20,932 nt of DNA, from positions 1 to 20,932 of the IMG/VR virus record IMGVR_UViG_3300032164_000088; one strand, written 5' to 3'. Positions within the stretch are counted from its first letter, which is position 1. Each line of letters begins with the position of its first letter. This document shows, one piece after another, positions 4,002 to 20,811 of the stretch. The position numbers and the translations under genes were made by a program. The notes below the pieces were generated by a model that did not search any database, was not told where the DNA came from, and saw only the letters and a list, made by a program, of their open reading frames with translations. Source of the DNA: a virus.

Positions 4002-4082
4002 CACCACGGAGACACGGAGAACACGGAGAAGAAAGAATAAATGTTTTCCGGTTTTCTCTGTGACCTCTGTGCCTCGGTGGTG
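4002..4082. repeat. Inverted repeat of the CACGGAG type (29-nt arms, 23-nt loop)
   Basis: The left arm 4002-4030 starts CACCACGGAGACACGGAG. The right arm 4054-4082 ends CTCGGTGGTG and is its imperfect reverse complement. It is a small mobile-looking hairpin element inserted between the tail tube and tail chaperone genes. A related half-copy lies at 20872-20900. The ATG at 4041 inside the loop is not a likely start. Confidence 0.75.
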
Positions 4083-4775: not shown

Positions 4776-6974
4776 ATGGCCGACACCTGGCAAAAATCCG
4801 GCATCGAGTACATCGTCAAGGACTCCACGCGCACGGGCGTAGCGGGCGTGCAGAAGAGTTTGCAGACCCTCGAAAAGACCGCCCAGGGCGTCAGCAAGAT
4901 GCTGGGCACGGCCCTGGCGGTCGGCGTCGGCTACGTGGGAATCTCCAAGCTGGTCAGCGGCTATCAGGAGGTGGCCCAATCGATCAGCGACACGGCCAAA
5001 GCGGCGGACATCCTCCAGATCTCGACGGAGAGCATGAGCGGCCTCAAGTACGTGGCGGAGCAGTCGGAGGTCGCGGGGGCCTCGATGGTCACGTTCCTGG
5101 AGCGGCTGACCCGATTCGGAGCGGAGGCGGCCCAGGGTACGGAGGCGGCGCGAATCGGCCTGCAGCAACTGGGACTCAGCGCCAAAGAGTTGAGCGAGAC
5201 CAGTCCTGATCAGGCGATTCGCAAGCTGGCGGACGCCTTCCAGACGATCCCCAACGCCTCGGACCAGATGCGGCTCGCGTTCGACATCTTCGGCCGGGGC
5301 GGCGCCGAGATGCTAAAGGTCCTGCGTCTCGGCAGTGCCGGGATCGATGAGATGATGGTCCGGGGCCAGAAGTTGGGCGGGGTCTTGACCGAAGTGGACG
5401 CGGCCCTGGCGCACCAGGCGGAAGTCGCCTTGAAGGAACTCCGCACGATTAAGAAGGCGATCCAGGACCAGCTCGTGGTGCAGGTGGCTCCCTATATCGC
5501 GGCGTTGGCGGGCCGTCTTGCGGACGCGGCGGCGGCCGGCGGCGGGTTCGGCGAGACGGTGACGAGTGCGATGGAATCCGTCGCGGTCGCGGCGGGCAAA
5601 GTGCTGGATATCCTCATCAAGATCGAGAACATCAAGAACTCGGTGGCCCTGCGCGCTTACGACGCCGCCTTTAAGAAGGATGTCTTCGATACCACCAAAG
5701 AGGTCTACGCGGACCAGATGAAGCGGGAGGGGAAACAGCCTTGGAGCCTGCTGGGCAAGGGCGGGGTGAGGTACGAGAACCGCTGGGCCCAGGCGGAGGA
5801 GATCGTCCGCAAAGACCGGACTCCCGCCTACGAGGCGGGCCGGGCCCCGCTGGTGCAGGAGGCGAGCAACGCCGAGCAAACCAAGACCTATTTCGCTCAA
5901 CTTCGCCAGCGGGCCCAGGGGATCCGTGAGCAGGCGGAGACGGAGGCCCGGATCAAGGAATACGGCCGCAGCCCGATGGCAGTTTCGAATCCAGCGGGAG
6001 TGATGCCGACGGAGCAGGAGATCAAAGACGCCGAGCAGGCCATCCAAGAAGAAGAGCGAGCGGTCCGGCGGGCGGCGGAGGGGATGCAGCGGCTCCGGGA
6101 CCGGGTCTCGGAGATGGACGCCGCGACGGAGACGGAGATCGAGGTGGTGCGGCGGGCGGGGGACGCCCACGGCAAATTGGGCGAGATCGTGCGTTACGAG
6201 ATGACGGTCCGCGAAGCCTATGGGGATAGTGTCGATGAGGTGACGCGGCGCTTGGAGAATCATCGCCGCGCGCTGGAGCTCCTGTCCCGGGTCGAGTTTT
6301 CGAACCGGTCGCTCGATGACCTGGGCCAGACCTTGACGGACATCGCGTTCGACTTCAAGAACGCCAGCCAGTACGCGGAGCAGTTTTTCAACACCCTCGC
6401 CCGCCGCGCGACCAACGAATTTATCATGCAGCCCTTCATGGATGCGATCAAGCCGGGCGTCGCCTCGCTCTTTGCCGGCGGCGGTCGTCAAAGTTACGGC
6501 AGTCTCGATACCTCCGTCGGCTCGAATTATCAGGCGCAGTCTGATTTCTACGGCTATAGCGCCGAGGTCCATCACGCGGGCGGCGGGGTTGGGGATGCTG
6601 GTCAGACCCGCTATCTGCCCGTGGGCGCTGCCGATCGCTATCTCGCTTCGAACGAGCGGCTGATCGTGGCGCGGGTGGGCGAGGAGGTCCTGACCGAGCA
6701 GGAATCCCGCCGCCAGCGCGTCGCCGTCTATCATGGCGGGGGCATCGTCGGCGGCTCGGCCGAGGCGGCCAGTGTCCCGGCATCGGGCGGTGCCGCGGGC
6801 CGGCCGGACAAAGTCGAGGTCCGGATCAGCAACCCGCCGGGCAGTCCGCTGGAGGCGACGGGCGCCCAGATCTCCTTCGACGGTCCCACGATGATCGTCG
6901 GCGTGATCCTCGACAACATCCGGCGGGGCGGCGTGATGCGGGACCAGATCCGCATGACGGCGCGGGGGGGGTAG
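4776..6974 (+). CDS. Tail tape measure protein
   Basis: 732 residues, the longest of the tail-core genes apart from the tip protein, and directly after the chaperones. Residues about 60-205 hold the typical tape-measure N-terminal region: 'SDTAKAADILQISTESMSGLKY', shown in part as ILQISTESMSGLKY, then 'LGLSAKEL', 'FDIFGRGGAEMLKVLRLG' and 'GGVLTEVDA'. A long Ala/Glu/Arg helical middle (about 300-500) follows, then 'LTDIAFDFKNASQYAEQF' and a glycine-rich tail with 'HHAGGGVGD', 'NERLIVARVGEEVLTEQE' and 'YHGGGIVGG'. It sets tail length and reaches the cell envelope at DNA entry. If mostly helical, a tail of roughly 100 nm would follow. No murein hydrolase motif is apparent. No Shine-Dalgarno is visible; the heptamer tract abuts the ATG. 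Confidence 0.9.
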   Translation: MADTWQKSGIEYIVKDSTRTGVAGVQKSLQTLEKTAQGVSKMLGTALAVGVGYVGISKLVSGYQEVAQSISDTAKAADILQISTESMSGLKYVAEQSEVAGASMVTFLERLTRFGAEAAQGTEAARIGLQQLGLSAKELSETSPDQAIRKLADAFQTIPNASDQMRLAFDIFGRGGAEMLKVLRLGSAGIDEMMVRGQKLGGVLTEVDAALAHQAEVALKELRTIKKAIQDQLVVQVAPYIAALAGRLADAAAAGGGFGETVTSAMESVAVAAGKVLDILIKIENIKNSVALRAYDAAFKKDVFDTTKEVYADQMKREGKQPWSLLGKGGVRYENRWAQAEEIVRKDRTPAYEAGRAPLVQEASNAEQTKTYFAQLRQRAQGIREQAETEARIKEYGRSPMAVSNPAGVMPTEQEIKDAEQAIQEEERAVRRAAEGMQRLRDRVSEMDAATETEIEVVRRAGDAHGKLGEIVRYEMTVREAYGDSVDEVTRRLENHRRALELLSRVEFSNRSLDDLGQTLTDIAFDFKNASQYAEQFFNTLARRATNEFIMQPFMDAIKPGVASLFAGGGRQSYGSLDTSVGSNYQAQSDFYGYSAEVHHAGGGVGDAGQTRYLPVGAADRYLASNERLIVARVGEEVLTEQESRRQRVAVYHGGGIVGGSAEAASVPASGGAAGRPDKVEVRISNPPGSPLEATGAQISFDGPTMIVGVILDNIRRGGVMRDQIRMTARGG

Positions 6975-7010: not shown

Positions 7011-7022
7011 GGGAAGATGCTG

Positions 7023-7565
7023 ATGTCGTCCAGCTCGATTTCATCCAGCCTTTCATCTAGCTCGCTCAGCTCCCTGTCGGTCTCCTCGTCGTCGCTCAGT
7101 TCATCGAGCTCAGCCTCCGTCAGCTCTTCCTCCTCGCTATCCTCCAGCTCCAGCAGCAGTTGCGGCCTGGATTTTCCGGAATTGATGAGGGCCTCGGCTC
7201 GGGGCTTTCCCCAGGAGTTCGTGATCGACCCGGGCGTGGCTGCGGCCCAATTGGGCAATGGCCGCACCCGCACCCGCCGCGAGTGGCAAGACGCCTTTCG
7301 CGGCTGGCGGGACCGGCTCATCAATTGCAGTACGGCCGATTACGCCATTTTCGAGACCTTCTATCGGGTCACCGCCCATCGCAGCGTGCGGCCGTTCACA
7401 TGGACCAATCCCCGGACGCAGGAGCGGGTCCTGGTCCGCTTCTGGTTTCGGGAGCCGCCGCGCTGGCAGCGGGTCGTGGACCATCAGATCGAGTGGGCAG
7501 TGGATTTCACGCTGGCCGAATGCGCCGGGGCGACGGGCACCGGCTATGGAGGCGCGGATGTGTGA
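7023..7565 (+). CDS. Minor tail (distal tail) protein, lambda gpM-like, with polyserine N-terminus
   Basis: 180 residues from ATG 7023, about eight bases after GAGGGAA; ATG 7017 is in frame but too close to it. About the first 48 residues are Ser with scattered Leu, Val, Ile and Ala. The folded part follows: 'EFVIDPGVAAAQLGNGRTRTR', shown only as EFVIDPGVAAAQLG, then 'AIFETFYRVTAHRSVRPFTW', then 'ERVLVRFWFREPPRW' and 'VDFTLAEC'. The pattern (FxxFY, then a loop of aromatic residues and 'TW', then two strands ending 'F-x-L-x-E') matches lambda gpM and other distal-tail-like proteins, and the slot after the tape measure is that of M. It is paralogous to the gene at 14661. This is the only virion gene here whose Ser tract is N-terminal. 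Confidence 0.72.
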   Translation: MSSSSISSSLSSSSLSSLSVSSSSLSSSSSASVSSSSSLSSSSSSSCGLDFPELMRASARGFPQEFVIDPGVAAAQLGNGRTRTRREWQDAFRGWRDRLINCSTADYAIFETFYRVTAHRSVRPFTWTNPRTQERVLVRFWFREPPRWQRVVDHQIEWAVDFTLAECAGATGTGYGGADV

Positions 7566-7656: not shown

Positions 7657-8502
7657 ATGAAGCAGATCCCGGACCTCATTCTGCGGCGGCTGAAAGAGCT
7701 GGAGACAACGGAGCCGTTCGTCGCCCTCCTGGACGTGGCGATCAACGACATCGCCGATACCCACATCCGCCTGGCCCGCAATACCCGGACGATCACGTTC
7801 GGCGGGGTAGACTACGTGCCCGCCGCCTTCGACATGCAGGTCCTGGGCGTCACGAAGAGGGAGGGGATTCCGCAGTTCGACCTGGCGATCAGCGACGTAG
7901 AGGAGCGGCTGCGGCCCTCGCTCTATGCGACGAACTATTTCCGGGGTGCGACCCTGACGATCGCGATTGTCATGCCGGACGCCCTCGCCGTCTATTACCA
8001 GGACCTGATCACGGAGTACAGCATTCTCAAAGCCCGGCCGCAAGCGGAGTGGGTCTATCTGACGATCGGCGGGCCGGACCTATTGCGGAAGCGGTTCCCA
8101 TGTGGCCGATTCTTTGCGGACCTCTGCGAGTACCGGTTCGGGACCGATCCCCGCTGTCCCTACGTCCCGATGGCGGTCGATGCGGTCGGTCACGCCGCGG
8201 CCGGCCGGGTCACGGTCACGGCGGCCGGCCACGCGTTCGAGACGGACGATCAGGTGACACTGGCCGGAATCGTGGGGATTACCCCGTCCCTGACGGGCAA
8301 CTACGTAGTGGAAAAGCATGATGCCAACAGCTTCCACCTCGACAGCACCGACGGCGCTAATTACGCCGGGGCCTATACGGGCGGCGGCACGGCGGGTTTC
8401 ACGATCTGCGAGCGGAACCTGGACGCCTGCCGAAAACGGGCCGCGACGCTGCACTTCTGGGGCTGCGTGGGCCTCCGCAATCGCGTGGCCCGACTGGCTT
8501 GA
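7657..8502 (+). CDS. Minor tail protein, lambda gpL-like iron-sulphur protein with an inserted beta domain
   Basis: 281 residues. Residues 1-145 follow the gpL N-terminal region ('FVALLDVAIN', 'ITFGGVDYVPAAFDM', 'LAISDVEERLRP'). Then come 'LCEYRFGTDPRCPY' (Cys157, Cys167) and 'ICERNLDACRKR' (Cys251, Cys258), matching the C-terminal four-cysteine region of lambda gpL, which binds an iron-sulphur cluster near the tail tip. Further Cys are at 149 and 270. Between the two Cys pairs lies an extra block of about 78 residues (172-250) containing 'GHAFETDDQVTLAG' and 'GAYTGGGTAGFTI'. This resembles the small FCCH-like beta domain often seen repeated in phage tail proteins. Position after M and before K-I-J is as in lambda. 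No Shine-Dalgarno is visible. Confidence 0.85.
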   Translation: MKQIPDLILRRLKELETTEPFVALLDVAINDIADTHIRLARNTRTITFGGVDYVPAAFDMQVLGVTKREGIPQFDLAISDVEERLRPSLYATNYFRGATLTIAIVMPDALAVYYQDLITEYSILKARPQAEWVYLTIGGPDLLRKRFPCGRFFADLCEYRFGTDPRCPYVPMAVDAVGHAAAGRVTVTAAGHAFETDDQVTLAGIVGITPSLTGNYVVEKHDANSFHLDSTDGANYAGAYTGGGTAGFTICERNLDACRKRAATLHFWGCVGLRNRVARLA

Positions 8503-8540
8503 AAATGATAAATCAAACATCGAACATCAAAAATCAAACT
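8503..8540 (+). repeat. Heptanucleotide repeat tract translated as the N-terminus of the K-I-J fusion
   Basis: Units GATAAAT, CAAACAT, CGAACAT, CAAAAAT, CAAACTT. The only good start codon (ATG 8505) lies at its left edge, so the tract is read as MINQTSNIKNQTS. Confidence 0.85.
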
Positions 8541-11500
8541 TCCGGCAATTGCTGGCGGCTCGTTCAAGCGACCCGTCAGGCGGCCGGTCTCGCCATGCCG
8601 GATCAGTTGCCGTGGTTGGCCGGTCTCGTGCGCGGCCCGGCCGGACCCGCCCGCTTCGTCCGTCTCGCCGCCCCGCAGACCTACGCCATCGTCGCGATCC
8701 GGATGGGGGAATACGTCACGCACCTCGGCGTGGTGCTCTCACCGCAGGAGTTCCTCCACGCGACGGACGCGGGACCACGGGTGGAGCGGATCGAGGCGTG
8801 GGCCCCCCGGATCGAGGGCTTCTACGAGTTCGCGTACCCCGCCCTCCCGCCCGGCCGTGAGGAAAGCGGCGCCGTGCCGGGGTCCCTGACGATCCTCACG
8901 AATCCCCTGACCGGCGCCACGCGGGCCGCGGCTGGTCCTGCCGCGGGCCGCAGTATCGCCGAATGGTTGGCCCAGGAAGGCGTCCCGGCGGCGGCCTGCC
9001 TCTTGAATGGGGAGCCGTTGGGACCGAAGGAATGGTCCTATCGTCCCCGGCCCGGGGACCGCGTGCAGGTGATCGTTCTCGTGGGCAAGGACACGCAGAT
9101 GATGGGCATGATCCTGATGGTGATGCTCGCCGTCGTGTCCTACGGAGTTGGGGGCTATGTCGGCGGGGCAGCGGGCCTTGGTTGGGGTCAGGGTTGGGGT
9201 GCGGCGGCCGCCGCCGGCATTATGATCGGCGGGTCGCTGCTGCTGAATACCCTGCTCGCCCCCGGCGCCCCGGACGCGGCCCAGGCCCGGCAGGCGCAAT
9301 GGAGCGATCAGACCATCCAGGCCCAGGGCGGGGCGGTCCCGAAAATCTATGGCGACGTGCGGGTCCACGGCAACATCATCGGCCATTACAGTGAGTTGGG
9401 AGCCGTGACCACCCGGGGCCTGCAACCAGCCTGGTGGATTGCCATCGAAGAGGGTTGGCGGCAATTCTTTAATTTGACTAATCCAGAATTGAATACCCCT
9501 ATCACGGCGACGCCGGTCAAATTGAGCACGCAGCACCTCCGGAATGTCCTGATCTGTTTCGGGGAAGGCCCCATCGGCAGTTTCGACGTGTCCTCGCTCC
9601 GAATCAACGACCAATCGATTACCGACCTGGCCGGCGTGGCCGTCGAATATCGCAACGGCACGCTCGAACAGACGGCAATGAGCAAGTTCAACACGGAGAC
9701 CCCGATCGAATTCTTCGCCGGCTACGTGCTGCCCTATGACACCAATGTCCGGACGTACACCCTGCCGGGCACCGGCTACGATGACGCCGAGGTGACGGTC
9801 GTCTATACGAACGGCATCTGGAGCATGGACCAAAGCGAGCTGGTTCCGCAGCGGGTGGTGCTCAAGGTCGAGGTTGGGGACGCGGTGGGGAATACGTGGC
9901 AAACGCTCTTTGCCGGGTTCGTGTGGGGCGAGACGACGAATCCCCTGCGCGTCGTTTACCGCGCCTCCACGACCTACGAGGGCGGAGCGCCCCTGGCCAT
10001 CACGCGGGCGATGCAGCCCCGCTTTCGGGTGACGCGGATCGAGCCGAGTTATCAGGGCACCACCTGGGGCGGCGACTGCATGATCGGCGAGGTCCGGGGC
10101 ATCCTGAACGAGGTCTTCGAGCATCCGGGCAAGGTCCTCATGCAGATCTCCGCCCTGCCCTCCGATCTGCTCTCCGGCTCGCTTGACGTCAGTATCGTGG
10201 TTCACGGCTCCATTCTGCAGCGTTGGGATGCGGCGGCCAACCCGCCGGCCTGGGTGCTGGACGCGGTCAAGCCGCAGAACCCCGCCTGGATCGATTATGA
10301 CATCCTGACGTATCCGCTCATCAGCGGCGATGGGATAGGGACACCCTACGCCGTCGAGGAGTATCGGGGCGTCGATCCGGACACGATCGATCTGACGGGT
10401 TTCCTGGCCACGGAGGTCCTGGCGGATGGCCAGGTCCCGGACGGCCTGGGCGGCGCCGGACTGGAGAATCGGATCGAGATCGACACCGTCTTCGGGGAGA
10501 CGGGCAACGTGTATGACGCGGTCCGGCGGATCGGGGTGACGGGCCGGGCGGGCCTCGACCTGCGGGGCAATCAGGTGGGGCTCTGGTGCGACGACGCCCG
10601 CGTGCCTTGCGGCCTGTTCGGCGACGGCAATTGGCTGAAGGACTCCTGGGAGCCGGACCCGATCCCGCAGGCGGACCGGGCGGCGGAGCTGGAGATCGTC
10701 TATTACGACCAGGATAACGGGGATGAGCAAACGCCGATCCTGGTGCCGGACCTGGAGATCGAGACGACGAACCGGTCAGCGATCGATTGCCGGGGCACCC
10801 GGCGGCGGAGCGAGGCCTGGCGGACGGGCCGGTACAATCTCGCCCGCAATCGCCTGCTGGATCTCGCGGGCCGGTTCGCGACGGACATCGACGGCATCAT
10901 TTACGAGCCGGGGGACGTGCTCTATATCCAGTTGCCCGGCCGGTCCTGGGGCGGCCGCTTGGCGGCGGTGGATTCCGGGGCGGATACGGTCACGCTGGAC
11001 CAAGACGTCCGGACGTCCGCCGGCGCTTGTCTGATCGTCCAAGTCCGCGATTCCGTGACGGGCGGGCAGGCGGCCGGCTATCGGCTGGTGGCGTCGCTCG
11101 CCGGGCGGGTCGTCAGTTTCGCGGGCGCCTGGATTTTCCCGGCGGGCGTGACGGCGGCGGCGGCGGCGGATGACGCCTATCTGTTCGGTCCCGCCGCGAT
11201 CCTGACCGACACCTTCGAGGTGATGGAGGTCCAGCCGCAGGCGCACCTGCAATTCGGGATCTCGGTGATCCGCTACGCCGCCGGGGTGTACACGGCGGAT
11301 GATGAAGAGTCGGGGATCTCGATCGATTCCGGCGTGGCGGTCGATCCGCCCACGGCCGGACCGCCGCGGCCGCCGACGCCGGCCCAAATGGCCGCCCTGC
11401 TGCCGCCGGGCGCCTTAGCGCCGCCGCCCAGCCGGGGTCTGCGCGTCTCCGCCCTCGACGTGACGGGCGATGGCGACGATACGATCTCCTGGCTCGCCGG

Positions 11501-12173
11501 CAGCATCTCCTACGCGGGCTACGTCTATCCGATCGTCGCCGGCGCCACGACGGATAAATACGTCTGGTTCGATCCCGGCGCCGTGGACCCCTTGACCCTG
11601 AAAACCGGTGCGACCTGGCCCGCCGATCCCGACATCTACAAGATGTTCATCAACGTTGCCGGCCAGCCGGTGGCGCTCTACGGCCAGCAGGTGGTCGGCG
11701 AGGACCCGGCCGGCGTCCTGCCGCTCTTGGTCGATGGCTCCCGGGTCGCGGCCAAATTGGGGATCACCGGCCACGCCTGGTTCGACGCCGAGTATGACAA
11801 CGGCAATTCCGGCGCGGCTAAGACGATCGACTGGCACAACGGCAATAAGCAGCTCCTGACCCTGACCGCGAGCTGCAATTTGACGTTCACCAATCCGGAC
11901 GGCGCGGCGAACCTGGTCCTGCGGCTGATCCAGGGCGGCGCGGGCGGCTACACGCTGACCTTGCCCCCGAGCACCTATATCGTGGGCGGGACGGCCTTGA
12001 CCTTGAGCGCGGCGGTCGGAGCCGAGGACATTCTGACCCTCTATTACCCCGGCGGCGGCAAGGGCTACCGGGTGGTGGCGGCGGCCTCGCAGCAATTGTC
12101 CAGCTCATCGAGCACGTCGTCGTCGTCGTCATCCTCATCGGAATCGTCGTCCAGCTCCTCGGGAGGGGCATAG
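8505..12173 (+). CDS. Fused tail-tip protein: NlpC/P60 peptidase (K) + ubiquitin-like (I) + host-specificity/tip protein (J)
   Basis: 1222 residues from ATG 8505; TTG 8499 is an alternative. Residues about 14-110: NlpC/P60 (C40) peptidase with Cys16 in 'NCWRLV', His73 in 'THLGVVL' and His85 in 'FLHATD'. The 12-residue gap between the two His is typical of the family, as is 'HLGVVL....FLHA'. Residues about 126-194: a beta-grasp ubiquitin-like domain ending 'RPGDRVQVIVLVGKD', as in gpI. Residues about 197-250: a hydrophobic glycine-rich segment, then 'AQGGAVPKIYGDVRV', the start of the gpJ body. A Pro-rich hinge near 946-978 leads to a C-terminal beta domain (about 1091-1194, 'IDWHNGNKQLLTL', 'LVLRLIQGG', 'DILTLYYPGGG') like fibre receptor-binding ends. 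Last comes a Ser tail. It would cut peptidoglycan and bind the host. The MPN/JAB domain of lambda gpK is missing. There is no Shine-Dalgarno. Confidence 0.88.
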   Translation: MINQTSNIKNQTSGNCWRLVQATRQAAGLAMPDQLPWLAGLVRGPAGPARFVRLAAPQTYAIVAIRMGEYVTHLGVVLSPQEFLHATDAGPRVERIEAWAPRIEGFYEFAYPALPPGREESGAVPGSLTILTNPLTGATRAAAGPAAGRSIAEWLAQEGVPAAACLLNGEPLGPKEWSYRPRPGDRVQVIVLVGKDTQMMGMILMVMLAVVSYGVGGYVGGAAGLGWGQGWGAAAAAGIMIGGSLLLNTLLAPGAPDAAQARQAQWSDQTIQAQGGAVPKIYGDVRVHGNIIGHYSELGAVTTRGLQPAWWIAIEEGWRQFFNLTNPELNTPITATPVKLSTQHLRNVLICFGEGPIGSFDVSSLRINDQSITDLAGVAVEYRNGTLEQTAMSKFNTETPIEFFAGYVLPYDTNVRTYTLPGTGYDDAEVTVVYTNGIWSMDQSELVPQRVVLKVEVGDAVGNTWQTLFAGFVWGETTNPLRVVYRASTTYEGGAPLAITRAMQPRFRVTRIEPSYQGTTWGGDCMIGEVRGILNEVFEHPGKVLMQISALPSDLLSGSLDVSIVVHGSILQRWDAAANPPAWVLDAVKPQNPAWIDYDILTYPLISGDGIGTPYAVEEYRGVDPDTIDLTGFLATEVLADGQVPDGLGGAGLENRIEIDTVFGETGNVYDAVRRIGVTGRAGLDLRGNQVGLWCDDARVPCGLFGDGNWLKDSWEPDPIPQADRAAELEIVYYDQDNGDEQTPILVPDLEIETTNRSAIDCRGTRRRSEAWRTGRYNLARNRLLDLAGRFATDIDGIIYEPGDVLYIQLPGRSWGGRLAAVDSGADTVTLDQDVRTSAGACLIVQVRDSVTGGQAAGYRLVASLAGRVVSFAGAWIFPAGVTAAAAADDAYLFGPAAILTDTFEVMEVQPQAHLQFGISVIRYAAGVYTADDEESGISIDSGVAVDPPTAGPPRPPTPAQMAALLPPGALAPPPSRGLRVSALDVTGDGDDTISWLAGSISYAGYVYPIVAGATTDKYVWFDPGAVDPLTLKTGATWPADPDIYKMFINVAGQPVALYGQQVVGEDPAGVLPLLVDGSRVAAKLGITGHAWFDAEYDNGNSGAAKTIDWHNGNKQLLTLTASCNLTFTNPDGAANLVLRLIQGGAGGYTLTLPPSTYIVGGTALTLSAAVGAEDILTLYYPGGGKGYRVVAAASQQLSSSSSTSSSSSSSSESSSSSSGGA

Positions 12174-12350
12174 TGGATGTGTGAAGTGTGATGTTCGAAG
12201 TGTGATGTTTGATTGAGGTTGGAGGCGGGCGTGCCCGCAAGAGTCTTGAAATCAACAATCAAAAATCAGAAATCAAAGATCACAAAATGAGGCGGGCGTG
12301 CCCGCAAGAATCTTGAAATCAACAATCAAAAATCAGAAATCAAAAAGGCC
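12174..12350. repeat. Tandemly duplicated composite repeat region
   Basis: Heptamers of TGTGATG/TTTGATT type (12176-12214) lead into a GGCGGGCGTGCCCGC core at 12221 and AAATCAA/CAATCAA heptamers. Then a second copy of core plus heptamers begins about 67 bases later at 12289, with one mismatch (AAGAGTCTT versus AAGAATCTT) over some 53 bases. This fills most of the 260-base gap after the tip gene; no intact gene is seen in it. Confidence 0.85.
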
Positions 12351-12354
12351 ATGA

Positions 12355-12420
12355 AGCAGAACGGGCACGCCGATCTACTGGGCGGCCCTCTTGACCAACT
12401 TCGGCACACCGCCGGCATAG
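12355..12420 (+). pseudogene. Possible relic of a small tail-associated reading frame
   Basis: One frame reads GTPIYWAALLTNFGTPPA up to a TAG at 12418-12420. Its third positions are almost all G or C, like true genes here. A TGA at 12352 and the lack of a start codon prevent expression as it stands. The ATG at 12351 opens a different frame (26 codons) with less gene-like codon use. This looks like the surviving 3' end of a gene cut by the adjacent repeats, but it is short and uncertain. Confidence 0.3.
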
Positions 12421-13492: not shown

Positions 13493-13596
13493 GGAAGTTT
13501 GATGTTTGAAGTGAGAAGTTTGATTTGAGTTGGAGGCGGGCGTAGCCCGCAAGAGTCTTAAATCAACCATCAACCATCAACAATCAAACTTGACCT
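13493..13596. repeat. Composite palindromic element with arms AAGTTTGAT / ATCAAACTT
   Basis: Left heptamers (GTTTGAT, GTTTGAA, GTGAGAA, GTTTGAT), core at 13532-13560 (GGAGGCGGGCGTAGCCCGC then AAGAGTCTTA), right heptamers (AAATCAA, CCATCAA, CCATCAA, CAATCAA) ending ACTT. The arms again pair as inverted complements. It runs up to the next gene and leaves no ribosome binding site. Confidence 0.88.
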
Positions 13597-14601
13597 ATGG
13601 CTGCTCTGATTCCAGTGATGACTTCGAACACCGCCCCCTCGGGCACGGCCTCGGCCAGTACGGCCCTCTCCACGACCTACGCCGCCTGGAAGGCGATGGA
13701 CGATTCGACCGCCACCTGGTGGAGTACGACGGACGCCGGTTCGGGCACCTGCTGGCTGATGTATTCCTGGGGAGCCAACAACAGCAAAATCATCACGTCG
13801 TACACGATCCGGGCCCGGTCGGGCGCGGGCAATCAGGCGGGCGCCCCCCACGACTTCAAACTGCAGGGTTACAACGGCTCGACCTATACCGATCTCGACA
13901 CGCAGACACACCAGAGTTTCGGCGACTCCGAAGTCAAGACCTACAATTTCAGCAATACGACAGCCTACCAGGCTTACCGGCTGAACATCACGGCGGACAA
14001 TGGCGGCACGTACACCGAGGTCGCGGAATTGGAGCTGCTGACCACGACGCCCTACGCCCGAATCGAGTTGGCGGGCGTGACGATCGTGTGCAAGGCCCCA
14101 GCGCCCCGGATTTTGCTGGCGGGCGTGCAGATCGCGTGGACCCTGACCGCGCCGGGCCAGGCGCTCAATCCTTCCCCGGCGGATGAGGCGATTGACGTTC
14201 TGCTGGACGCCGAATTGTCGTGGACCGATGGCGGCGGAACTGTCACATTCGACGTGTACCTCGGCACGGACCCGGACGATTTGGATCTGGTCAGTGACGA
14301 TCAGGCCGGTCTATCCTATCAGCCGCCGGCCGCCCTCGATCCGGGCACGATCTATTACTGGCAAATCGACGCGACGAACGCGGTGGGCACGACCGCGGGC
14401 GACATCTGGTCCTTCACGACGGCCGCCTCCTCTTCGAGCTCGAGCAGCAGTTCCAGCCTTTCCTCGTCGAGCAGTTCCGAATCCGTGTCGTCTTCATCCT
14501 CATCGTCATCGTCCTCCTCCTCCAGCAGTTCCAGCTCCTCGAGCAGTATGGCCGCCGAGGAAACCGGCATCGTGACGATGTTCCTGGGCTTCCACTTTTG
14601 A
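13597..14601 (+). CDS. Discoidin (F5/8 type C)-like plus FN3-like adhesin with polyserine tract
   Basis: 334 residues. About 10-148: an F5/8 type C-like carbohydrate-binding domain ('TYAAWKAMDDSTATWWST', 'SKIITSYTIRARSG', 'PHDFKLQGYNGSTYTDL', 'AYRLNITADNGG', 'VAELELL'). About 152-182: two copies of a short motif, 'ARIELAGVTIVCK' and 'PRILLAGVQIAW'. About 188-276: a fibronectin type III-like domain ('LNPSPADEAIDV', 'VTFDVYLGTDPDDLDLV', 'DPGTIYYWQIDATN', 'IWSFTTAA'). Then about 40 residues nearly all Ser, and a final 17-residue peptide starting MAAEETG. It is probably a secreted-looking virion surface or fibre protein binding host glycans. No signal peptide is seen, which fits a virion rather than an exported protein. 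Confidence 0.75.
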   Translation: MAALIPVMTSNTAPSGTASASTALSTTYAAWKAMDDSTATWWSTTDAGSGTCWLMYSWGANNSKIITSYTIRARSGAGNQAGAPHDFKLQGYNGSTYTDLDTQTHQSFGDSEVKTYNFSNTTAYQAYRLNITADNGGTYTEVAELELLTTTPYARIELAGVTIVCKAPAPRILLAGVQIAWTLTAPGQALNPSPADEAIDVLLDAELSWTDGGGTVTFDVYLGTDPDDLDLVSDDQAGLSYQPPAALDPGTIYYWQIDATNAVGTTAGDIWSFTTAASSSSSSSSSSLSSSSSSESVSSSSSSSSSSSSSSSSSSSSMAAEETGIVTMFLGFHF

Positions 14602-14611
14602 GCGGCCTCTC

Positions 14612-14650
14612 TGAAAATTCGGAAATCGGAAATCGGAAATAGTAAATTCT
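14612..14650 (+). repeat. Heptanucleotide repeat tract (AAATCGG type)
   Basis: AAATCGG, AAATCGG, AAATAGT, AAATTCT units between the discoidin-like gene and the second M-like gene. This is the same subtype (AAATCGG) as the tracts at 17991 and 20167. Confidence 0.85.
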
Positions 14651-14660: not shown

Positions 14661-15170
14661 ATGGCGGCATCGGCGGTCATCGATCTGGCGGGCGTCGTGA
14701 TCATGTGCACGGCCCCCCATGCCCAAATCAACCTTTTCGGCGTGATAATACGAAACATCTTCATCCCCTACGTCCCGCCCGGTACTCCCCCGGTGTTTCC
14801 TGACCTGAGCGTGCCGGGGATCGCGACCCTGAGCCGTGCGGACGCCCCCGGCTATCCGCAGCAGCAGATGGCGGCGGATGGGACGGTCCACGCCCTGCTC
14901 GGCGAAGGGTCCCTGCGGGCCCGCGAGGACCTGGGCCGGCATCGCTCCTGGACGCGGTCGATCCGCTTCCTGACCTTGGCCGACTACACGCTCTTCCAGA
15001 CCTTTTATTATACCACAGTCTACCGATCGGTGCGGGCCTTCTATTGGACCAACCGCGCCAATGGCGAGCAGGTCCTGGTGCGGTTCAGTCCCACGTCCCC
15101 GCCCCAGTGGACCCCGGTCGAAAACCACAAGGACAAATTCCGTCTTGATTTCACCCTGATCGAAGCCTGA
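14661..15170 (+). CDS. Second gpM-like minor tail protein with LAGV-motif N-terminus
   Basis: 169 residues, with GGAG upstream. The C-terminal 80 residues align by eye with the M-like protein at 7023: 'TLFQTFYYTTVYRSVRAFYW' against 'AIFETFYRVTAHRSVRPFTW', 'EQVLVRFSPTSPPQW' against 'ERVLVRFWFREPPRW', and 'LDFTLIEA' against 'VDFTLAEC'. The N-terminus instead has 'AVIDLAGVVIMCT' and 'AQINLFGVIIRN', the same short repeat as in the preceding discoidin-like protein. It may attach the accessory fibre proteins to the tail tip by mimicking M, or replace M. That is inference; the paralogy is seen directly. Confidence 0.72.
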   Translation: MAASAVIDLAGVVIMCTAPHAQINLFGVIIRNIFIPYVPPGTPPVFPDLSVPGIATLSRADAPGYPQQQMAADGTVHALLGEGSLRAREDLGRHRSWTRSIRFLTLADYTLFQTFYYTTVYRSVRAFYWTNRANGEQVLVRFSPTSPPQWTPVENHKDKFRLDFTLIEA

Positions 15171-15192: not shown

Positions 15193-15801
15193 ATGACAAC
15201 CGCGATCGACTATGCCACGTTGCGGCGGCAATCCCACGGCCGCCTGGCCATCGAGGATATGCGGCTTTTGGTCCGGGCCTGCGCCGCCTGCGAAGCCCGC
15301 ACGATTCTGGAAATCGGGGCGGCCGACGGCGGCTCATCCGTGATCCTGGCGGCGCAGGCGGCGGAGCGGGAGGGGCGGCTCTATTCCATCGAGGGCAATC
15401 CGAAAGCCCTGATGCGCGCGAACCTCGCGGCCTACGGTTTGCAGGATCGATGCACCTTGCTGCCCGCCTGGTCGCCGTGGCTGGGGCCGTTGGAGCGGCA
15501 GATTCCGGCGCGTGTGGATCTTCTCTTCATCGACGGCCGTCACGATATTCGCTGGTGCCTGGCGGACTATCACTATTGGGAGCCGCGGGTCCGGCCCGGC
15601 GGCGTGATCGTATTCCACGACACGGGCGGCCTGTGCCGCGAGGACCGGGCCCAGCCGGACTTCGGCCAGCCCGGATACGTGCCCCTGGTCCGCCGGGCGT
15701 TGGCCATCATTCTCGCGACCGATCCCCTGGTCCAGATCGACGCGAGCGACGTTGTGGACGGCGGCGCGATCGCCTTCGCAAAGGGGGTGAAAGATGAGTG
15801 A
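15193..15801 (+). CDS. Class I SAM-dependent methyltransferase (Methyltransf_24 type), first of a pair
   Basis: 202 residues. SAM-binding motif I is 'ILEIGAADGGSS' (about 38-49), the ribose-binding acid is Glu67 in 'YSIEGNP', then 'LLFIDGRHD' (about 110-118) and 'GGVIVFHDTGG' (about 136-146). This order and the 'FIDGxHD ... GGxxxxHD' signature are those of the Methyltransf_24/cephalosporin-hydroxylase-like family, which methylates small molecules, sugars among them. It begins the run of glycan genes. The next gene overlaps it by eight bases. The substrate is unknown; neighbours suggest a sugar. A DNA methyltransferase is unlikely because no DPPY- or PC-type motif is seen. Confidence 0.8.
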   Translation: MTTAIDYATLRRQSHGRLAIEDMRLLVRACAACEARTILEIGAADGGSSVILAAQAAEREGRLYSIEGNPKALMRANLAAYGLQDRCTLLPAWSPWLGPLERQIPARVDLLFIDGRHDIRWCLADYHYWEPRVRPGGVIVFHDTGGLCREDRAQPDFGQPGYVPLVRRALAIILATDPLVQIDASDVVDGGAIAFAKGVKDE

Positions 15802-16387
15802 TGGTTTCCCGGATCTGGCCGAATGGAGTGCGGCCGTGGTGCACCCCGATGACGAGGGCAAATTCCGTACCCAGAGATTTCACGACTATTATCGCCAGAA
15901 GTACCTCATCGCCGCCCTGTTCGCCCCCGCTTCCATCGCGGAGATCGGGGTCCGCTGGGGCTATTCCGCGTGGTCATTTTTGCGGGCCTGTCCCCGGGCG
16001 GCCTACGACGGTTTCGATCTCCAGCAAGGGACACACGGGGGGGCCAAAGGGGCCGACACTTTCGACTGGTGTTTGCAATTGCTCGCCCGCGATTATCCGG
16101 ATGCCTCGGTGGCGTTCCATCGGGCGGACACGCAGGCCCTCGATACGTTGGGCGGGCCCTACGACCTGATCCACGTGGATGGCGATCACACCGAGCGCGG
16201 CTGCCGGCACGATCTGGATTTGGCGTGGAACGCCGCGGCCGCCGGCGGTTTGATTCTGGTGGACGATTACGATTACATTCCCGGGGTCCATGCGGCGGTA
16301 GATGCCTTTTGCCGGGCCCGGCCGCGGGCCGGCCAAATCGCCGTGCCCTCATTGCGCGGCGAGTATCTGATTCGAAAGGAGGACTGA
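15794..16387 (+). CDS. Class I SAM-dependent methyltransferase (Methyltransf_24 type), second of a pair
   Basis: 197 residues. Motif I is 'IAEIGVRWGYSA' (about 48-59), then 'AYDGFDLQQG', 'YDLIHVDGDHTERG' (about 123-136) and 'GGLILVDDYDYIPGV' (about 151-165). The 'HVDGDH ... GG.ILVDDY' signature is very typical of Methyltransf_24 enzymes encoded in polysaccharide loci. Its ATG lies inside the end of the first methyltransferase gene, after GGGGGTGAAAG, so translation is coupled. The two are only distantly alike and are unlikely to be a recent duplication. A sugar O-methyltransferase is the best guess. Confidence 0.8.
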   Translation: MSDGFPDLAEWSAAVVHPDDEGKFRTQRFHDYYRQKYLIAALFAPASIAEIGVRWGYSAWSFLRACPRAAYDGFDLQQGTHGGAKGADTFDWCLQLLARDYPDASVAFHRADTQALDTLGGPYDLIHVDGDHTERGCRHDLDLAWNAAAAGGLILVDDYDYIPGVHAAVDAFCRARPRAGQIAVPSLRGEYLIRKED

Positions 16388-17097
16388 TGGATTTGTATTT
16401 CTTCTGCGCGGTCGACGAGAATCCCACCTATCGAAAAGAAGCCGAGATCCTGATCGAATCCGGCCGAGTCTTCGGGCGGGAGATTCACCTGTACGATATC
16501 CCTACCACTGAGGTCTGGAATCGGTACAAGGTCAATCTGTTCCTCGCGGACCTGCCGGCGGCCGACCGGTATATCTACCTGGACAGCGACTGCGTCTTGA
16601 CCGGTCCCGGCGATTGGGAGGCCCCGGACTGCCTCGGCGTCTGTGACGTGCTCTACTATTGCGACGCCTTCGACCGGTCCCGCCACACGAAGGGATTCAT
16701 GCGGAATCACACGCTCCTCGTCGGCGAGAAAAAAGGGTACGACTACCTGGTCCAGCTCTATCTGGAGCATGGCCAGCCACCCTGGTGCAATTCAGGTGTC
16801 GTTGTCCTATCGGCCGAGCAACGTCTGCCGTTCGCCCGGGTCTGGAAAGACTGGATGAACCGGATCGATGCCCAGTGCGAGAAGGGCTTCATGGTGGGCG
16901 ATGAGGGGGCGCTGCTGGTGGCGCGGCAAGAGTACGGCCTGCCGCTGCTGCCGCCGCGGTTCAACGGCATGTGCAAATGGCAGCCGATCTTCGATTGGCA
17001 CGTCTTGATCCACGCCGACGGCAACGTCGGCGGTCCGAAACGGCAACCTTATCTGGATGCGATTCAACGCGTCCGCAATTTGAAGGAGAAACGATGA
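16387..17097 (+). CDS. GT-A fold glycosyltransferase with DxD motif (GT8-like)
   Basis: 236 residues from ATG 16387, which overlaps the previous TGA by one base and follows AAAGGAGG. 'YIYLDSDCVLTG' (Asp66, Asp68) is the metal- and nucleotide-sugar-binding DxD motif. 'WCNSGVVVLSAEQ' corresponds to the 'NSGvmli' acceptor-side motif of GT8-like enzymes, and 'HVLIHADGNVGGPK' near the end gives the C-terminal His loop. It would transfer a sugar from a nucleotide donor, in the cytoplasm. Neither donor nor acceptor can be read from sequence. The cluster position suggests priming or extension of a glycan on a virion protein or on the host surface. Confidence 0.78.
   Translation: MDLYFFCAVDENPTYRKEAEILIESGRVFGREIHLYDIPTTEVWNRYKVNLFLADLPAADRYIYLDSDCVLTGPGDWEAPDCLGVCDVLYYCDAFDRSRHTKGFMRNHTLLVGEKKGYDYLVQLYLEHGQPPWCNSGVVVLSAEQRLPFARVWKDWMNRIDAQCEKGFMVGDEGALLVARQEYGLPLLPPRFNGMCKWQPIFDWHVLIHADGNVGGPKRQPYLDAIQRVRNLKEKR
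17083..17094 (+). promoter_or_regulatory. Extended Shine-Dalgarno leader AAGGAGAAACGA
   Basis: Lies inside the end of the glycosyltransferase gene. Spacing to ATG 17097 fits the other copies of this leader better than spacing to ATG 17094. Confidence 0.7.
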
Positions 17098-17978
17098 TGA
17101 AAGTATTGGTACTCGGCGGCGCAGGCTTCATCGGCCGTCATGTTTGTGATCTCTTGATGCAGCGGGGCCACGTGGTCACGGCCTTCGACCCGGCCCCGCT
17201 GGAATTGCCGGCCCCGCACGCGGGCGTGCGCGGGGACGTGCGGGATGCAACGGCCGTGCAGTGCTATGTGGCCCAGCATGACGCCGTGGTGCACCTGGCC
17301 GGTATTCTCGGCACGGCGGAGACCGTGGACCGGCCCGGCCCGGCCATCGAGGTCAATATCCTCGGCGCCTTGAACGTCTTCGAGGCGGTCCGCCGGGAAG
17401 GCAAACTCGCGGTGACGATCACGGTCGGCAATCACTGGATGCTGAACAGCTACTCCATCACCAAGAGCTGCGCTGAGCGATTGGCCCTGATGTACGATCG
17501 CGAGCACGGGACGCGGATCGCGGTCGTGCGGGGTCTCAATGCCTACGGACCCGGCCAGAAGGCCAAGCCCGTCCGCAAAGTGATACCGAATTTCATTCTG
17601 CCGGCCCTGCGCGGCCAGGACCTGACGATCTACGGGGATGGCGAGCAGATCATGGACTTCATCTACGTCCGCGATCTGGCGTCGATTTTGCTGACGGCAT
17701 TGTTCCGCGACCACGGGTGCTACGACCGGATCTTCGAGGCGGGCAGCGGCCGGCGCACGACGATCAATGAGGTCGCCGAGTGCGTGATTCAGGCGGCCGG
17801 TTCCCGCTCCCGGATCTGTCACCATCCGATGCGGCCCGGCGAAATCGCCAACAGTGTGGTACTGGCGGATACGGAGACCTTGCGGCCGCTCGGCGTGGAC
17901 GTGGCGGGGATGGTGTCCCTGGAGGACGGTCTCCGGCAGACGATTCCCTGGTACCGAGAGCATCTGGCGGACCTGTGA
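17097..17978 (+). CDS. NAD-dependent sugar epimerase/dehydratase (extended SDR)
   Basis: 293 residues from ATG 17097; ATG 17094 is also possible and would add one Met. The N-terminal Rossmann motif is 'VLVLGGAGFIGRHV' (GxxGxxG at about 7-13). Then come 'GDVRDATAV' for the adenine end, 'VVHLAGILG', 'EVNILGALNVFEAV', the catalytic YxxxK 'YSITK' (Tyr119, Lys123), 'VVRGLNAYGPGQ' and 'MDFIYVRDLASILL'. This is the classic UDP-/dTDP-sugar epimerase-dehydratase family, making an activated sugar such as a 4-epimer or a 4-keto sugar. The length is normal. It overlaps the upstream glycosyltransferase gene and so belongs to the same operon. The usual catalytic Ser/Thr region reads 'TITVGNHW', slightly unusual. 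Confidence 0.85.
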   Translation: MKVLVLGGAGFIGRHVCDLLMQRGHVVTAFDPAPLELPAPHAGVRGDVRDATAVQCYVAQHDAVVHLAGILGTAETVDRPGPAIEVNILGALNVFEAVRREGKLAVTITVGNHWMLNSYSITKSCAERLALMYDREHGTRIAVVRGLNAYGPGQKAKPVRKVIPNFILPALRGQDLTIYGDGEQIMDFIYVRDLASILLTALFRDHGCYDRIFEAGSGRRTTINEVAECVIQAAGSRSRICHHPMRPGEIANSVVLADTETLRPLGVDVAGMVSLEDGLRQTIPWYREHLADL

Positions 17979-17987
17979 GGGGGCATT

Positions 17988-18719
17988 ATGAAATCGGAAA
18001 TCGGAAATGGTAAATCGGAAATCTGGCCGGCTCCGCCCTGGCACGGCGAGTTCGGCTGGGAGGTAATGAGTTGGGCGCCCTTCTGTCGGGCCCGCAGCCG
18101 CACGGGGCGCGTCGGCATTACGAGCTTCGCCGCCAGCCTGGCACTATACGCCGACTTCGCCTGGGAGTTTCACGATCACGGGGCGAGCGGCCGGAGCCTC
18201 GTCTATCGCAAGGATTTCGGCATGTACCGCAGCGGCGGCCCCGGCTTCGAGCATTTTCGCTACGGCGATCCGGACCGGGCGGAGCCGTTCGACGTACTGA
18301 TCCACGCCCGGGGCATCGGGCGGAAATCCGCGATCAATTATCGCCATTGGGATAGCATCAGTCTTATGCTCCTGGGGGGTGGGATCAAAGCCGCCTCGAT
18401 CGGCACGCTCCAGGACCTTATCGTCCCCGGCACGCGGGATCTGCGGGGCCTGCCGTTGGAGCGATTGATGGACCTCTGTTTAGCGGCGGATGTCACGGTG
18501 GGGTGCAGCTCGGGCGTCATGCACTTGGCCGCCGCCTGCGGCTGCGGCCTCGTCGTCTGGGGCGACACGAAGACCCGCTACCGCGAGACGCTGGAGACGC
18601 GGTACAAAGAGACCTGGAATCCGCAGCACGTCGACGTCGCCTGGCTCGACGCCGACGATTGGCAGCCGGACCCCGGCCGCGTGATCCGTGCCATAGAACA
18701 AATCAACAATTCCCCGTAG
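17988..18719 (+). CDS. GT9-like (heptosyltransferase-type) glycan protein with repeat-derived N-terminus
   Basis: 243 residues, ten bases after the epimerase stop, with GAGGGGG as ribosome binding site. The first 13 residues, MKSEIGNGKSEIW, are encoded by AAATCGG-type heptamers. The domain starts at 'HGEFGWEVMSWAPFCRA'. Near the C-terminus 'DVTVGCSSGVMHLAAACGCG' followed by 'LVVWGD' matches the 'SgxmHlaaalG.p.v.lfG' loop of GT9/GT-B enzymes that binds the nucleotide-sugar phosphate. It is shorter than full GT9 enzymes (about 320-350), so it may be a minimal or partner subunit. The stop codon lies within a 29-bp palindromic repeat at 18716, so the original C-terminus may have been changed. Confidence 0.65.
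   Translation: MKSEIGNGKSEIWPAPPWHGEFGWEVMSWAPFCRARSRTGRVGITSFAASLALYADFAWEFHDHGASGRSLVYRKDFGMYRSGGPGFEHFRYGDPDRAEPFDVLIHARGIGRKSAINYRHWDSISLMLLGGGIKAASIGTLQDLIVPGTRDLRGLPLERLMDLCLAADVTVGCSSGVMHLAAACGCGLVVWGDTKTRYRETLETRYKETWNPQHVDVAWLDADDWQPDPGRVIRAIEQINNSP
17991..18026 (+). repeat. Translated heptanucleotide repeat tract (AAATCGG type)
   Basis: AAATCGG, AAATCGG, AAATGGT, AAATCGG, AAATCTG directly after the ATG at 17988. It is translated as KSEIGNGKSEIW. Here, unlike most loci, the tract is downstream of the start codon. Confidence 0.88.
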
Positions 18720-18744
18720 GGGCGGGTTTCAAACCCGCCCGTAC
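18716..18744. repeat. 29-bp palindromic repeat, copy 1 (GGGCGGGTTT type)
   Basis: Ten-base arms GGGCGGGTTT and AAACCCGCCC flank a single C, making a strong hairpin. The 29 bp at 18716-18744 are the exact reverse complement of 19736-19764. It contains the TAG that ends the GT9-like gene and could serve as a transcript-end hairpin there. Confidence 0.9.
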
Positions 18745-18769
18745 AGAAACCCGCCCAATGGGGCGCCAA

Positions 18770-18783
18770 AAGGAGAAAACGAC
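18770..18783 (+). promoter_or_regulatory. Extended Shine-Dalgarno leader AAGGAGAAAACGAC
   Basis: One base longer than the other copies; sets the start of the two-domain glycosyltransferase at 18784. Confidence 0.75.
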
Positions 18784-20754
18784 ATGCAATTCATCGAAAC
18801 GATCGACGTGACCGCGCCCTTGCGGGTCCTCTTGAAAAACCACCAGGAATTGCTGGGGGACCGGATGGGCCTGACGGCCCTGGTCCGGGATTTGAAAGCG
18901 ACGTATCCGCACTGGCAGATCTACGTCGCCGTGGATGATGCGACGGTCTGGCGGAACAATCCGCACGTGGCGGGGATCGTCCTGCCGGGCGAGCCGGACC
19001 CGGCGAAGATCGACATGGCGGTCGACGTGGGTCCTTTCCGCGCGACCCAGTCCAGCAAACATAATGGCGTGCATTTCATGCGGGCCTGGAATTACGGTTT
19101 CATCCGGGCCACGGGCCTGCCCGTCCACCCCGGCCCGTTGAAGGCGGATCTCCATCTCTCCGCCGAGGAGCGGGCCTACCAGCCTGTGGCGGGGTCCTAT
19201 TGGGTTTTCAATGCCGACACGAACAACATGGGTAGCAAGCGCTGGCCCGCCGAGCGTTGGCGGGAGCTGATCCGGTCGCTGCCGGAGATCCGGTTCGTCC
19301 AGGTCGGCCTGGCGAAGGATTTGATCGAGGATTACAGCGATGAGCCAAACGTCACGAGCCTGGTGGGCCGGACGGACGTCCGGCAACTGTTTGCCCTGGT
19401 CGCGCACGCCGAGGGTTGCGTGAGCCTGATCAGCTCCCTGATGCACGTGGCCGGGGCCTTCGACCGGCCCTGCGTGGTCCTGGCCGGCGGCCGGGAACCG
19501 GCGACGTTTGAGCAGTACCCGGCCCACTATTTCATTCAGCGGGTCGGCCTGCTGCCGTGCTGCCGGGCCCTCGCCTGCTGGCACAACTCGATCACCGCCT
19601 GTACGGACCGGGTCGAAACGCCGGCGGGTCCCAACTCCCGGTGCATGACAACGATCGCGCCGGCGGACGTCCGGCGGGGAATCGAGCTGTACTACGAAGG
19701 CGGCCGCCTGGAAAATCCGAAATCCAAACATCAAAGTACGGGCGGGTTTGAAACCCGCCCCTACCAATTACGCGGCCCCCGCGTCCTTCGCATCGTGACG
19801 AACGGCAAATACCTCGGCGGGGCAGAGCGGTCCTGCCTGGCGATCGCCCGGATGTTCCGGGCGCAGGACTGGCAAGTGGAGATCGCGACCCGCCAACCGA
19901 TGTGCGCCGAGATGGCGGCGGCGTTCGATCCCGTGGCGGTCCGGACGGATCGGGTCTCGGCGCCATGCGACGTGCTGCTCTGGTATGCCAGCGATCAGGT
20001 CTACGACGCCCACCTGCCCGAGTTCGAGCTTCTGGTAAACGCCCATGCCCGCAGGAAGGTGATGGCGTTGACCTACAAGCTCGGCCGGGTGCCCGAATTG
20101 CCGTGGGCCAAGGATTGGGACGGCTACCTATTCCTGTCCAGCGCGATGCGGGGCTCCTTCGCGGCGAAATCGAAAATGGTAAATAGTAAATCGGAAATCA
20201 TAAATAGTAAATGCCAGGTCCTCGCTCCGCCGGTCGATCTGGCCCCGTTCCTGGCCCTTCCTCTCGGCTCCCGGCCGGGGGTCCGCATCGTCCGGCATGT
20301 CTCCCAGGGCGATGCGAAATGGCCGGGGGATACGGAGGCCCTGATCCGCGCCTGCCCGTCGGCGCGGTTCGAATTCATGCCGCCCCCGGTCTGGCTCGAA
20401 CCGATGGACAATCTCGGGCGGTTTCCCTATGGGGCCATGCCCGTGCCCCAGCTCCTGGCCGGCGGCAATCTGTTCCTCTACCTGCTCCCGGATGAGTACA
20501 CGGACCAGGGGCCGCGGGTTGTGGTCGAGGCGATGGCGGCGGGCCTACCGGTGCTTTGCCAGCGGCGGGACGGGTGTGCGGACCGGGTGACGGAGGAGAC
20601 GGGATGGTTCGTCCGGACAGCGGCCGAGGCGGCGGAGATCGTCAATACGGTGACGCCGGAGATCCTCGCAGCCAAGGGCCGGGCCGCCCGCGCCCGGGCG
20701 CAAACGGAATTCGATCCCGAAAAGTGGTACGGCGCGATCGCGGGGGGCCCGTGA
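18784..20754 (+). CDS. Two-domain glycosyltransferase, GT9-like + GT4-like, joined through repeats
   Basis: 656 residues. Residues 1 to about 305 are a GT9/heptosyltransferase-like unit: 'LLGDRMGLTALVRDLKATYP' shown in part (GDRMGLTALVRDLK), 'WVFNADTNNMGSKRWPAERW', and 'SLISSLMHVAGAFDRPCVVL'. Residues about 310-329 come from a heptamer tract plus the 29-bp palindrome (translated 'STGGFETRPYQ'). Residues about 333-656 are a GT4-like GT-B unit: 'LGGAERSCLAIARMF' at the start and 'DQGPRVVVEAMAAGLPVL' near the end, the E-x7-E-type donor-binding motif. A second heptamer tract is translated inside it (about 461-478, 'KSKMVNSKSEIINSK'). Likely role: adding two sugars in sequence. It could also be two ancestral genes merged by the repeat. 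Its stop is TGA at 20752-20754. Confidence 0.82.
   Translation: MQFIETIDVTAPLRVLLKNHQELLGDRMGLTALVRDLKATYPHWQIYVAVDDATVWRNNPHVAGIVLPGEPDPAKIDMAVDVGPFRATQSSKHNGVHFMRAWNYGFIRATGLPVHPGPLKADLHLSAEERAYQPVAGSYWVFNADTNNMGSKRWPAERWRELIRSLPEIRFVQVGLAKDLIEDYSDEPNVTSLVGRTDVRQLFALVAHAEGCVSLISSLMHVAGAFDRPCVVLAGGREPATFEQYPAHYFIQRVGLLPCCRALACWHNSITACTDRVETPAGPNSRCMTTIAPADVRRGIELYYEGGRLENPKSKHQSTGGFETRPYQLRGPRVLRIVTNGKYLGGAERSCLAIARMFRAQDWQVEIATRQPMCAEMAAAFDPVAVRTDRVSAPCDVLLWYASDQVYDAHLPEFELLVNAHARRKVMALTYKLGRVPELPWAKDWDGYLFLSSAMRGSFAAKSKMVNSKSEIINSKCQVLAPPVDLAPFLALPLGSRPGVRIVRHVSQGDAKWPGDTEALIRACPSARFEFMPPPVWLEPMDNLGRFPYGAMPVPQLLAGGNLFLYLLPDEYTDQGPRVVVEAMAAGLPVLCQRRDGCADRVTEETGWFVRTAAEAAEIVNTVTPEILAAKGRAARARAQTEFDPEKWYGAIAGGP
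19713..19764. repeat. Heptamer tract plus 29-bp palindrome (copy 2), translated inside the GT9-GT4 gene
   Basis: Heptamers (AAATCCG-like, AAATCCA, AACATCA) run into the palindrome at 19736-19764, the exact inverse of the copy at 18716. There is no stop in this frame, so it forms the linker between the GT domains. Confidence 0.9.
20167..20214 (+). repeat. Heptanucleotide repeat tract translated inside the GT4 domain
   Basis: Seven units in register: AAATCGA, AAATGGT, AAATAGT, AAATCGG, AAATCAT, AAATAGT, AAATGCC. It encodes about 16 Lys/Ser/Asn-rich residues placed just before 'VLAPPVDL', i.e. at the usual link between the two halves of a GT-B enzyme. Confidence 0.9.
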
Positions 20755-20756
20755 GA

Positions 20757-20788
20757 AATTATGAATTATAAATTATGAATTATCAATG
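20757..20788 (+). repeat. Heptanucleotide repeat tract (AATTATG type)
   Basis: AATTATG, AATTATA, AATTATG, AATTATC directly after the last stop codon. This begins the final non-coding stretch of the window (20755-20932), where no gene is seen. Confidence 0.82.
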
Positions 20789-20811
20789 GACGTGTCGTTT
20801 CTCCTAAGGCC

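Follow-up and report, generated by a model that had tools for sequence, protein, structure and literature searches.

Virion glycosylation has been documented in only a few phages, mostly those of actinobacteria. In mycobacteriophage Che8, phage glycosyltransferases are linked to glycosylated capsid or other virion proteins (Freeman et al. 2023, as cited in PMC11256854 and PMC13313380), and in some actinobacteriophages a methyltransferase is also linked to virion glycosylation (as cited in PMC11256854 and PMC13313380). A protein heptosyltransferase with serine as its acceptor is TibC, which carries an iron finger and requires each of Cys339, 342, 358 and 370 for activity (PMC4358343). Long Ser tracts are glycosylated by the GT4 enzymes GtfA/B, which act on serine-rich-repeat adhesins, and SdgB.

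The locus described here resembles the mycobacteriophage system in that phage-encoded glycosyltransferases and a methyltransferase are tied to virion proteins. It differs in that no polyserine tag is mentioned in the passages of PMC11256854 and PMC13313380 bearing on that system, and in that its GT-A and GT9-GT4 proteins have zero matches among 50,697 annotated phage records. With the bacterial autotransporter heptosyltransferases TibC/AAH (BAHT, TIGR04414) it shares the GT-B/GT9 fold and putative acceptor serines in a repetitive protein, and it may share a finger of four Cys closing the C-lobe, three of which align in the profile match, whereas the enzyme misses the family model, has another Cys spacing and is fused to a GT4 domain, and its acceptor would be homopolymeric serine on the virion. 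The GT4 domain is predicted to superpose on GtfA/B and SdgB (Z 22.6 and 23.6), a match which is not specific among GT4 folds; unlike those systems, the locus has no accessory secretion system and its target would be the phage particle.

The window, which is the whole stretch of DNA analysed, comprises the entire record IMGVR_UViG_3300032164_000088, a 20,932-base linear phage fragment, and the structural and sugar genes are therefore carried on one phage contig. Along it lie genes for capsid cement, major capsid, neck, tail tube, chaperone, tape measure, minor tail, tip and fibre proteins, followed by a six-gene cassette. The principal features are:

2-304, + strand, truncated capsid-cement paralogue, cut by the window start, with a C-terminal polyserine tail (13-aa tandem repeat)
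337-717, + strand, capsid cement protein (PF09956, Phage_cement_2) with a short tail, SSSSSSW
794-1753, + strand, major capsid protein, MCP (phrog_1005, E=3e-43)
3554-3988, + strand, major tail tube protein, TTP (phrog_158), Ser tail at about 3926-3982
4776-6974, + strand, tape measure protein
7017-7565, + strand, minor tail protein (phrog_384), N-terminal Ser tract at 7023-7166
8505-12173, + strand, tail tip/J-like protein, whose sequence and place in the gene order are conserved among relatives, C-terminal Ser tail at 12093-12167
13597-14601, + strand, fibre-like tail protein (phrog_17517), Ser tract at 14419-14556 near the C-terminus
14661-15170, + strand, second minor tail paralogue without a Ser tract, 42% identical to 7017-7565
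15193-15801, + strand, MT1, SAM methyltransferase (PF13578, Methyltransf_24, 72 bits)
15794-16387, + strand, MT2, SAM methyltransferase (PF13578, Methyltransf_24, 57 bits; weak TylF match)
16387-17097, + strand, GT-A glycosyltransferase with an LDSD (DxD) motif and no Pfam match
17091-17978, + strand, NAD-dependent nucleotide-sugar epimerase/dehydratase (PF01370)
17988-18719, + strand, short GT9-like protein (PF01075 under the cut-off, 18.3 vs 22 bits)
18784-20754, + strand, GT9-GT4 fusion, residues 1-312 GT9/TibC-like and 331-656 GT4

The identity of the truncated first gene was taken from the near-identical records L004 and G002, which hold the full gene, the tract there coming directly after a second capsid-cement paralogue. 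The MCP, which served as the clade marker, has only 22-24% matches among annotated phages, in Rhizobium and Arthrobacter phages. Only one of the two minor tail paralogues has a Ser tract in the window; in G004 and G005 the second copy is also preceded by one.

The first-pass annotation had listed six polyserine-tagged virion genes, of which five carry real tracts (2-304, 3554-3988, 7017-7565, 8505-12173 and 13597-14601), while the sixth, at 337-717, is weak, with only SSSSSSW. The tail tube protein ends in 18 Ser interrupted by one Leu and followed by Ala, the minor tail protein begins with about 45 Ser-rich residues, the tail tip protein ends in about 25, and the fibre-like protein contains a Ser tract of about 45 residues with 17 further residues behind it. 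Across the entire coding set only 3e-5 Ser-rich 12-residue stretches (at least 9 Ser) are expected by chance. All six Ser codons are mixed within the tracts (TCG 54, TCC 48, AGC 42, AGT 19, TCA 17, TCT 14), indicating that serine itself is conserved or selected. No relevant paper on polyserine in phages was found in the literature searched.

The same codon mixing rules out a DNA microsatellite as the nature of the tracts, with the exception of a 39-nt tandem array in the first gene. The copy number of this 39-nt (13-aa) repeat of the cement paralogue (window 2-304; L002 3918-4169; L004 6192-6560) varies among otherwise near-identical records, giving 84 vs 123 Ser-rich residues, and the difference may tentatively be ascribed to slippage or assembly collapse. 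The tracts of the window are interrupted by L, V or E, unlike those of L377, L379, L381 and L384, which belong to one enzyme group and in which R or CR interrupts the serines regularly, every 6-10 residues.

The first-pass description of a packed cassette placed after the tail genes and comprising two methyltransferases, a GT-A enzyme, an epimerase, a GT9-like protein and a GT9-GT4 fusion held: the six genes occupy 15193-20754 on the + strand, directly 3' of the tail genes, with overlaps at the first three junctions. The AlphaFold model of the GT-A enzyme (pLDDT 93) has GT24/GT8/GT6-type enzymes and the PBCV-1 capsid glycosyltransferase as its nearest folds. When a divergent GT9-GT4 homologue was compared with annotated phages, one weak partial match was obtained.

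Both halves of the fusion protein satisfy their family thresholds, the N-terminal half as GT9 (PF01075, 54.6 bits vs gathering 22) and the C-terminal half as GT4 (PF13692, 27.4 bits vs gathering 27). In the GT9 domain four cysteines (C259, C265, C273 and C287) are invariant in 25 sequences. Asp26 of the GD motif is also invariant, and the domain satisfies the BAHT criterion of a GT-B catalytic fold with a catalytic Asp. The GT9 profile matches TibC with E=4.6e-6 over a region that covers the iron-finger stretch, where three of the four Cys align (TibC Cys342, 358 and 370); the fourth is spaced differently (C-x5-C-x7-C-x13-C vs Cys339, 342, 358 and 370). The structure predicted for the window protein (pLDDT 87) places residues 1-312 on TibC (4rap) with Z 22.2 and 3.0 A over 279 residues. 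The resemblance is not exclusive, as the model also superposes on further GT9 proteins (Z 22-26) and, by sequence, the GT9 domain matches LPS heptosyltransferase II of E. coli as well as it matches TibC. The C-terminal half is predicted to adopt a GT4 fold, with generic matches to GT4 enzymes at Z of about 25. The TIGR04414 (TibC/BAHT) model was not met, four of the five scanned homologues scoring 10.6-19.2 bits against a 200-bit cut-off and the fifth giving no match, and the enzyme is therefore not classed as a BAHT. Nevertheless it probably works like one, an activity inferred by analogy, and its four-Cys finger is likely to bind metal, for which there are no metal-binding data. In the divergent homologues of G049, G051 and G064, GT9, methyltransferase and GT4 domains are joined in one full chain; a single-sequence search of the PDB with this three-domain enzyme returned nothing useful.

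Relatives of the window were collected by MCP or tail-tube similarity. All viral records with MCPs 93-100% and 43-48% identical have Ser tails on cement and/or tail tube proteins, and in many cases fibres and the protein preceding the tip are tailed as well; tail tubes merely 30-40% identical to that of the window are still Ser-tailed. On cement and tail tube the tails are kept at protein identities of 30-45% and across a GC content of 0.48-0.67. MCP relatives at 33% identity or less have neither Ser tails nor cassette, with one C-terminal tract in 57 loci. Cassette genes were present in all seven Ser-tailed records that were found by MCP or tail-tube similarity alone and reach past the tail genes: the window, G004, G005 (cut in GT-A), G009, G013, G017 (cut in MT1) and contig 92 of G031. 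The same layout with Ser tails occurs in G008, G092-G096 and G099, which were found through the enzyme itself and were left out of this count as circular. The constant core of the cassette is a methyltransferase with GT9-GT4; in L364 (G093) and G031 contig 92 neither an epimerase nor a GT-A gene was found. The second gene beyond the cassette of G013 (L100 9882-10934) encodes a long Ser/Leu/Glu tract of about 200 aa, and homologues of its C-terminal part lie 3' of the cassette in L366, L367 and L371.

The association was then followed beyond the clade in both directions. A forward scan, which used only polyserine DNA with mixed codons and was blind to sugar genes, recovered many phages with several Ser-tailed proteins each; outside the window clade these were again cement/decoration and tail proteins, some of them from other families (phrog_122, phrog_290). 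A GT9 or GT9-GT4 homologue was present in 7 of the 19 records outside the clade. PF01075 was detected in six of these 19 vs one of 32 controls, made up of 12 MCP relatives and 20 contigs chosen by an arbitrary 15-mer (p=0.008), and blastp added G049. No GT9 homologue was found in the remaining 12; three of them (G057, G060 and G045) break off within the tail module or shortly behind it, and their missing enzymes therefore cannot be judged. PF00535 (GT2) was no marker of polyserine phages.

In the reverse scan the GT9-GT4 alignment was the sole query and 33 loci were obtained. Ser tracts lie within 10 kb of the enzyme in 27 of them, vs 3 of 80 random phage loci (Fisher p=4e-17), and in 21 of 26 (p=1e-14) after removal of the window clade and of contigs known from the polyserine scan. 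The six tract-less loci include that of G102, a record rich in tracts at other places, and L390 (G051), whose Ser tails lie outside the locus; the enzyme records G100, G103 and G112 have no convincing Ser tract. At 50% identity the enzymes form eight clusters, and every one contains a Ser-tract phage. PF13578 (Methyltransf_24) was found in 19/25 enzyme records vs 1/32 controls, while the random control G073 has GT9, GT2 and PF13578 without Ser tracts. It should be noted that Ser-tract phages supplied the sequences from which the enzyme profile was built, that the loci are related to each other and not fully independent, that contigs are fragments, and that the random control was unmatched by environment. 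Ser tails and enzyme are strongly associated in both directions, also beyond the clade of the window.

This survey had been proposed in the first-pass annotation, together with two findings that would refute a link. Several of the apparent exceptions are contigs ending before the cassette region, and the enzyme stands without Ser tails in the three records lacking a convincing tract, set against the 27 of 33 loci with tracts. Its own inference that the tracts are glycan acceptors is supported by genomics only, through the strong two-way association and the resemblance of the GT9 domain to the proven protein-serine glycosyltransferase TibC; the chemistry remains inferred.

Contig 92 of G031 belongs to a Phycisphaerae MAG, which is possibly the first clue to a host. 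Relatives of the MCP at 38-42% identity in other MAGs, mostly Omnitrophota, lack virion Ser tails, and only weak single-domain enzyme matches, with no full-length GT9-GT4, were found in those MAGs. A close GT9 homologue occurs in 3 of 397 genomes of the class of the Phycisphaerae MAG, that MAG counted, and is therefore not a general host gene. One chromosomal homologue from this class (L442-L443, G237 contig 331) is surrounded by ordinary chromosomal genes and is apparently non-phage; a few kb away lies a 1,644-codon frame with Ser-rich stretches, which raises the possibility that bacteria own a related Ser-tract/GT9 system. The polyserine DNA pattern had no match in seven host MAGs, yet it also misses a Ser-tailed prophage-like contig there, so that its absence carries no information on polyserine as a general habit of the hosts.

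The criterion for a phage virion glycosylation system, co-occurrence of glycosylation genes with a candidate virion acceptor, is met, and, as the best explanation of the locus, the phage probably encodes a system for O-glycosylation of the polyserine tags that its own virion proteins carry. This rests on genomics only, with no activity, sugar, modified serine or mass-spectrometric data. The acceptor tags would be the polyserine tails of the capsid cement, tail tube, tail tip, minor tail and fibre proteins. The epimerase/dehydratase may shape the nucleotide sugar, whose identity is inferred, and the TibC-like GT9 domain of the fusion, with its four-Cys finger, would put the first sugar on the serines inside the infected cell. 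The glycan would be extended by the GT4 domain, the GT-A enzyme and the small GT9-like protein, and capped through O-methylation by the two methyltransferases, in a step order that is likewise inferred. The putative outcome is a hydrated glycan brush over head and tail, with particle protection, adhesion or receptor masking as candidate purposes, also inferred.

A bolder reading, which the evidence favours by a narrow margin, is that of a phage system, widespread but so far undescribed, with polyserine as a portable acceptor tag for any virion protein and a dedicated GT9-(methyltransferase)-GT4 enzyme that decorates it and bears a cysteine-finger protein-glycosyltransferase module; the system would serve unrelated phages whose bacterial hosts are poorly cultured. 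A sequence tag and an enzyme family would then predict virion glycosylation across many unrelated uncultured phages, making the glycosylation of phage particles searchable by sequence. The tag-plus-enzyme pair is testable and is a possible tool to glycosylate chosen proteins.

Among the alternatives, the one that survives best, although unlikely, combines two that the first-pass annotation had raised: the cassette alters glycans of the host surface, for O-antigen-like conversion or superinfection exclusion, while the Ser tails serve merely as flexible linkers or spacers. Serotype-converting glycosyltransferases encoded by phages are well known, and GT9 with GT4 is typical of LPS synthesis. However, this explanation does not predict the two-way association of enzyme and polyserine, no membrane flippase, polymerase or GtrA-like partner was recognised among the cassette genes, and the cassette adjoins late tail genes; nor do linkers need near-pure serine at protein ends, past the folded domain. 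It is very unlikely that tails and enzyme merely ride in the same lineages or hosts through shared ancestry or ecology. Enzyme and tails are inherited jointly in the window clade, at least one relative is in a Phycisphaerae MAG, a kind of host that related phages may have in common. Against this, the association is seen again alongside other head and tail genes and in eight enzyme clusters below 50% identity, the MCP relatives in Omnitrophota bins that lack virion Ser tails also lack a full-length GT9-GT4 match, and the close GT9 homologue, present in only 3/397 genomes of the Phycisphaerae MAG's class, is not a general host gene. Some phages do encode DNA glucosyltransferases, and phosphorylation of polyserine is possible, but glycosylation of hypermodified phage DNA, or another modification of the tails such as phosphorylation, is also very improbable, as no base-hypermodification or kinase gene was recognised in the window and the nearest enzyme matches are heptosyl- and GT4-type rather than DNA glucosyltransferases.

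Apart from the polyserine system, the window has short heptamer-like tandem repeats (AATCAAA, GGAAATC, AATTATG and CTCTGTG types) between its genes, together with a repeated GGCGGGCGTGCCCGC element. Such repeats, almost missing from 80 random phage loci, are located at 4010-4080, 8500-8545, 12240-12370, 13500-13595, 14605-14650, 17988-18020, 20180-20210 and 20755-20790. They extend into the coding starts of the tip and GT9-like genes and also occur within the GT9-GT4 gene.
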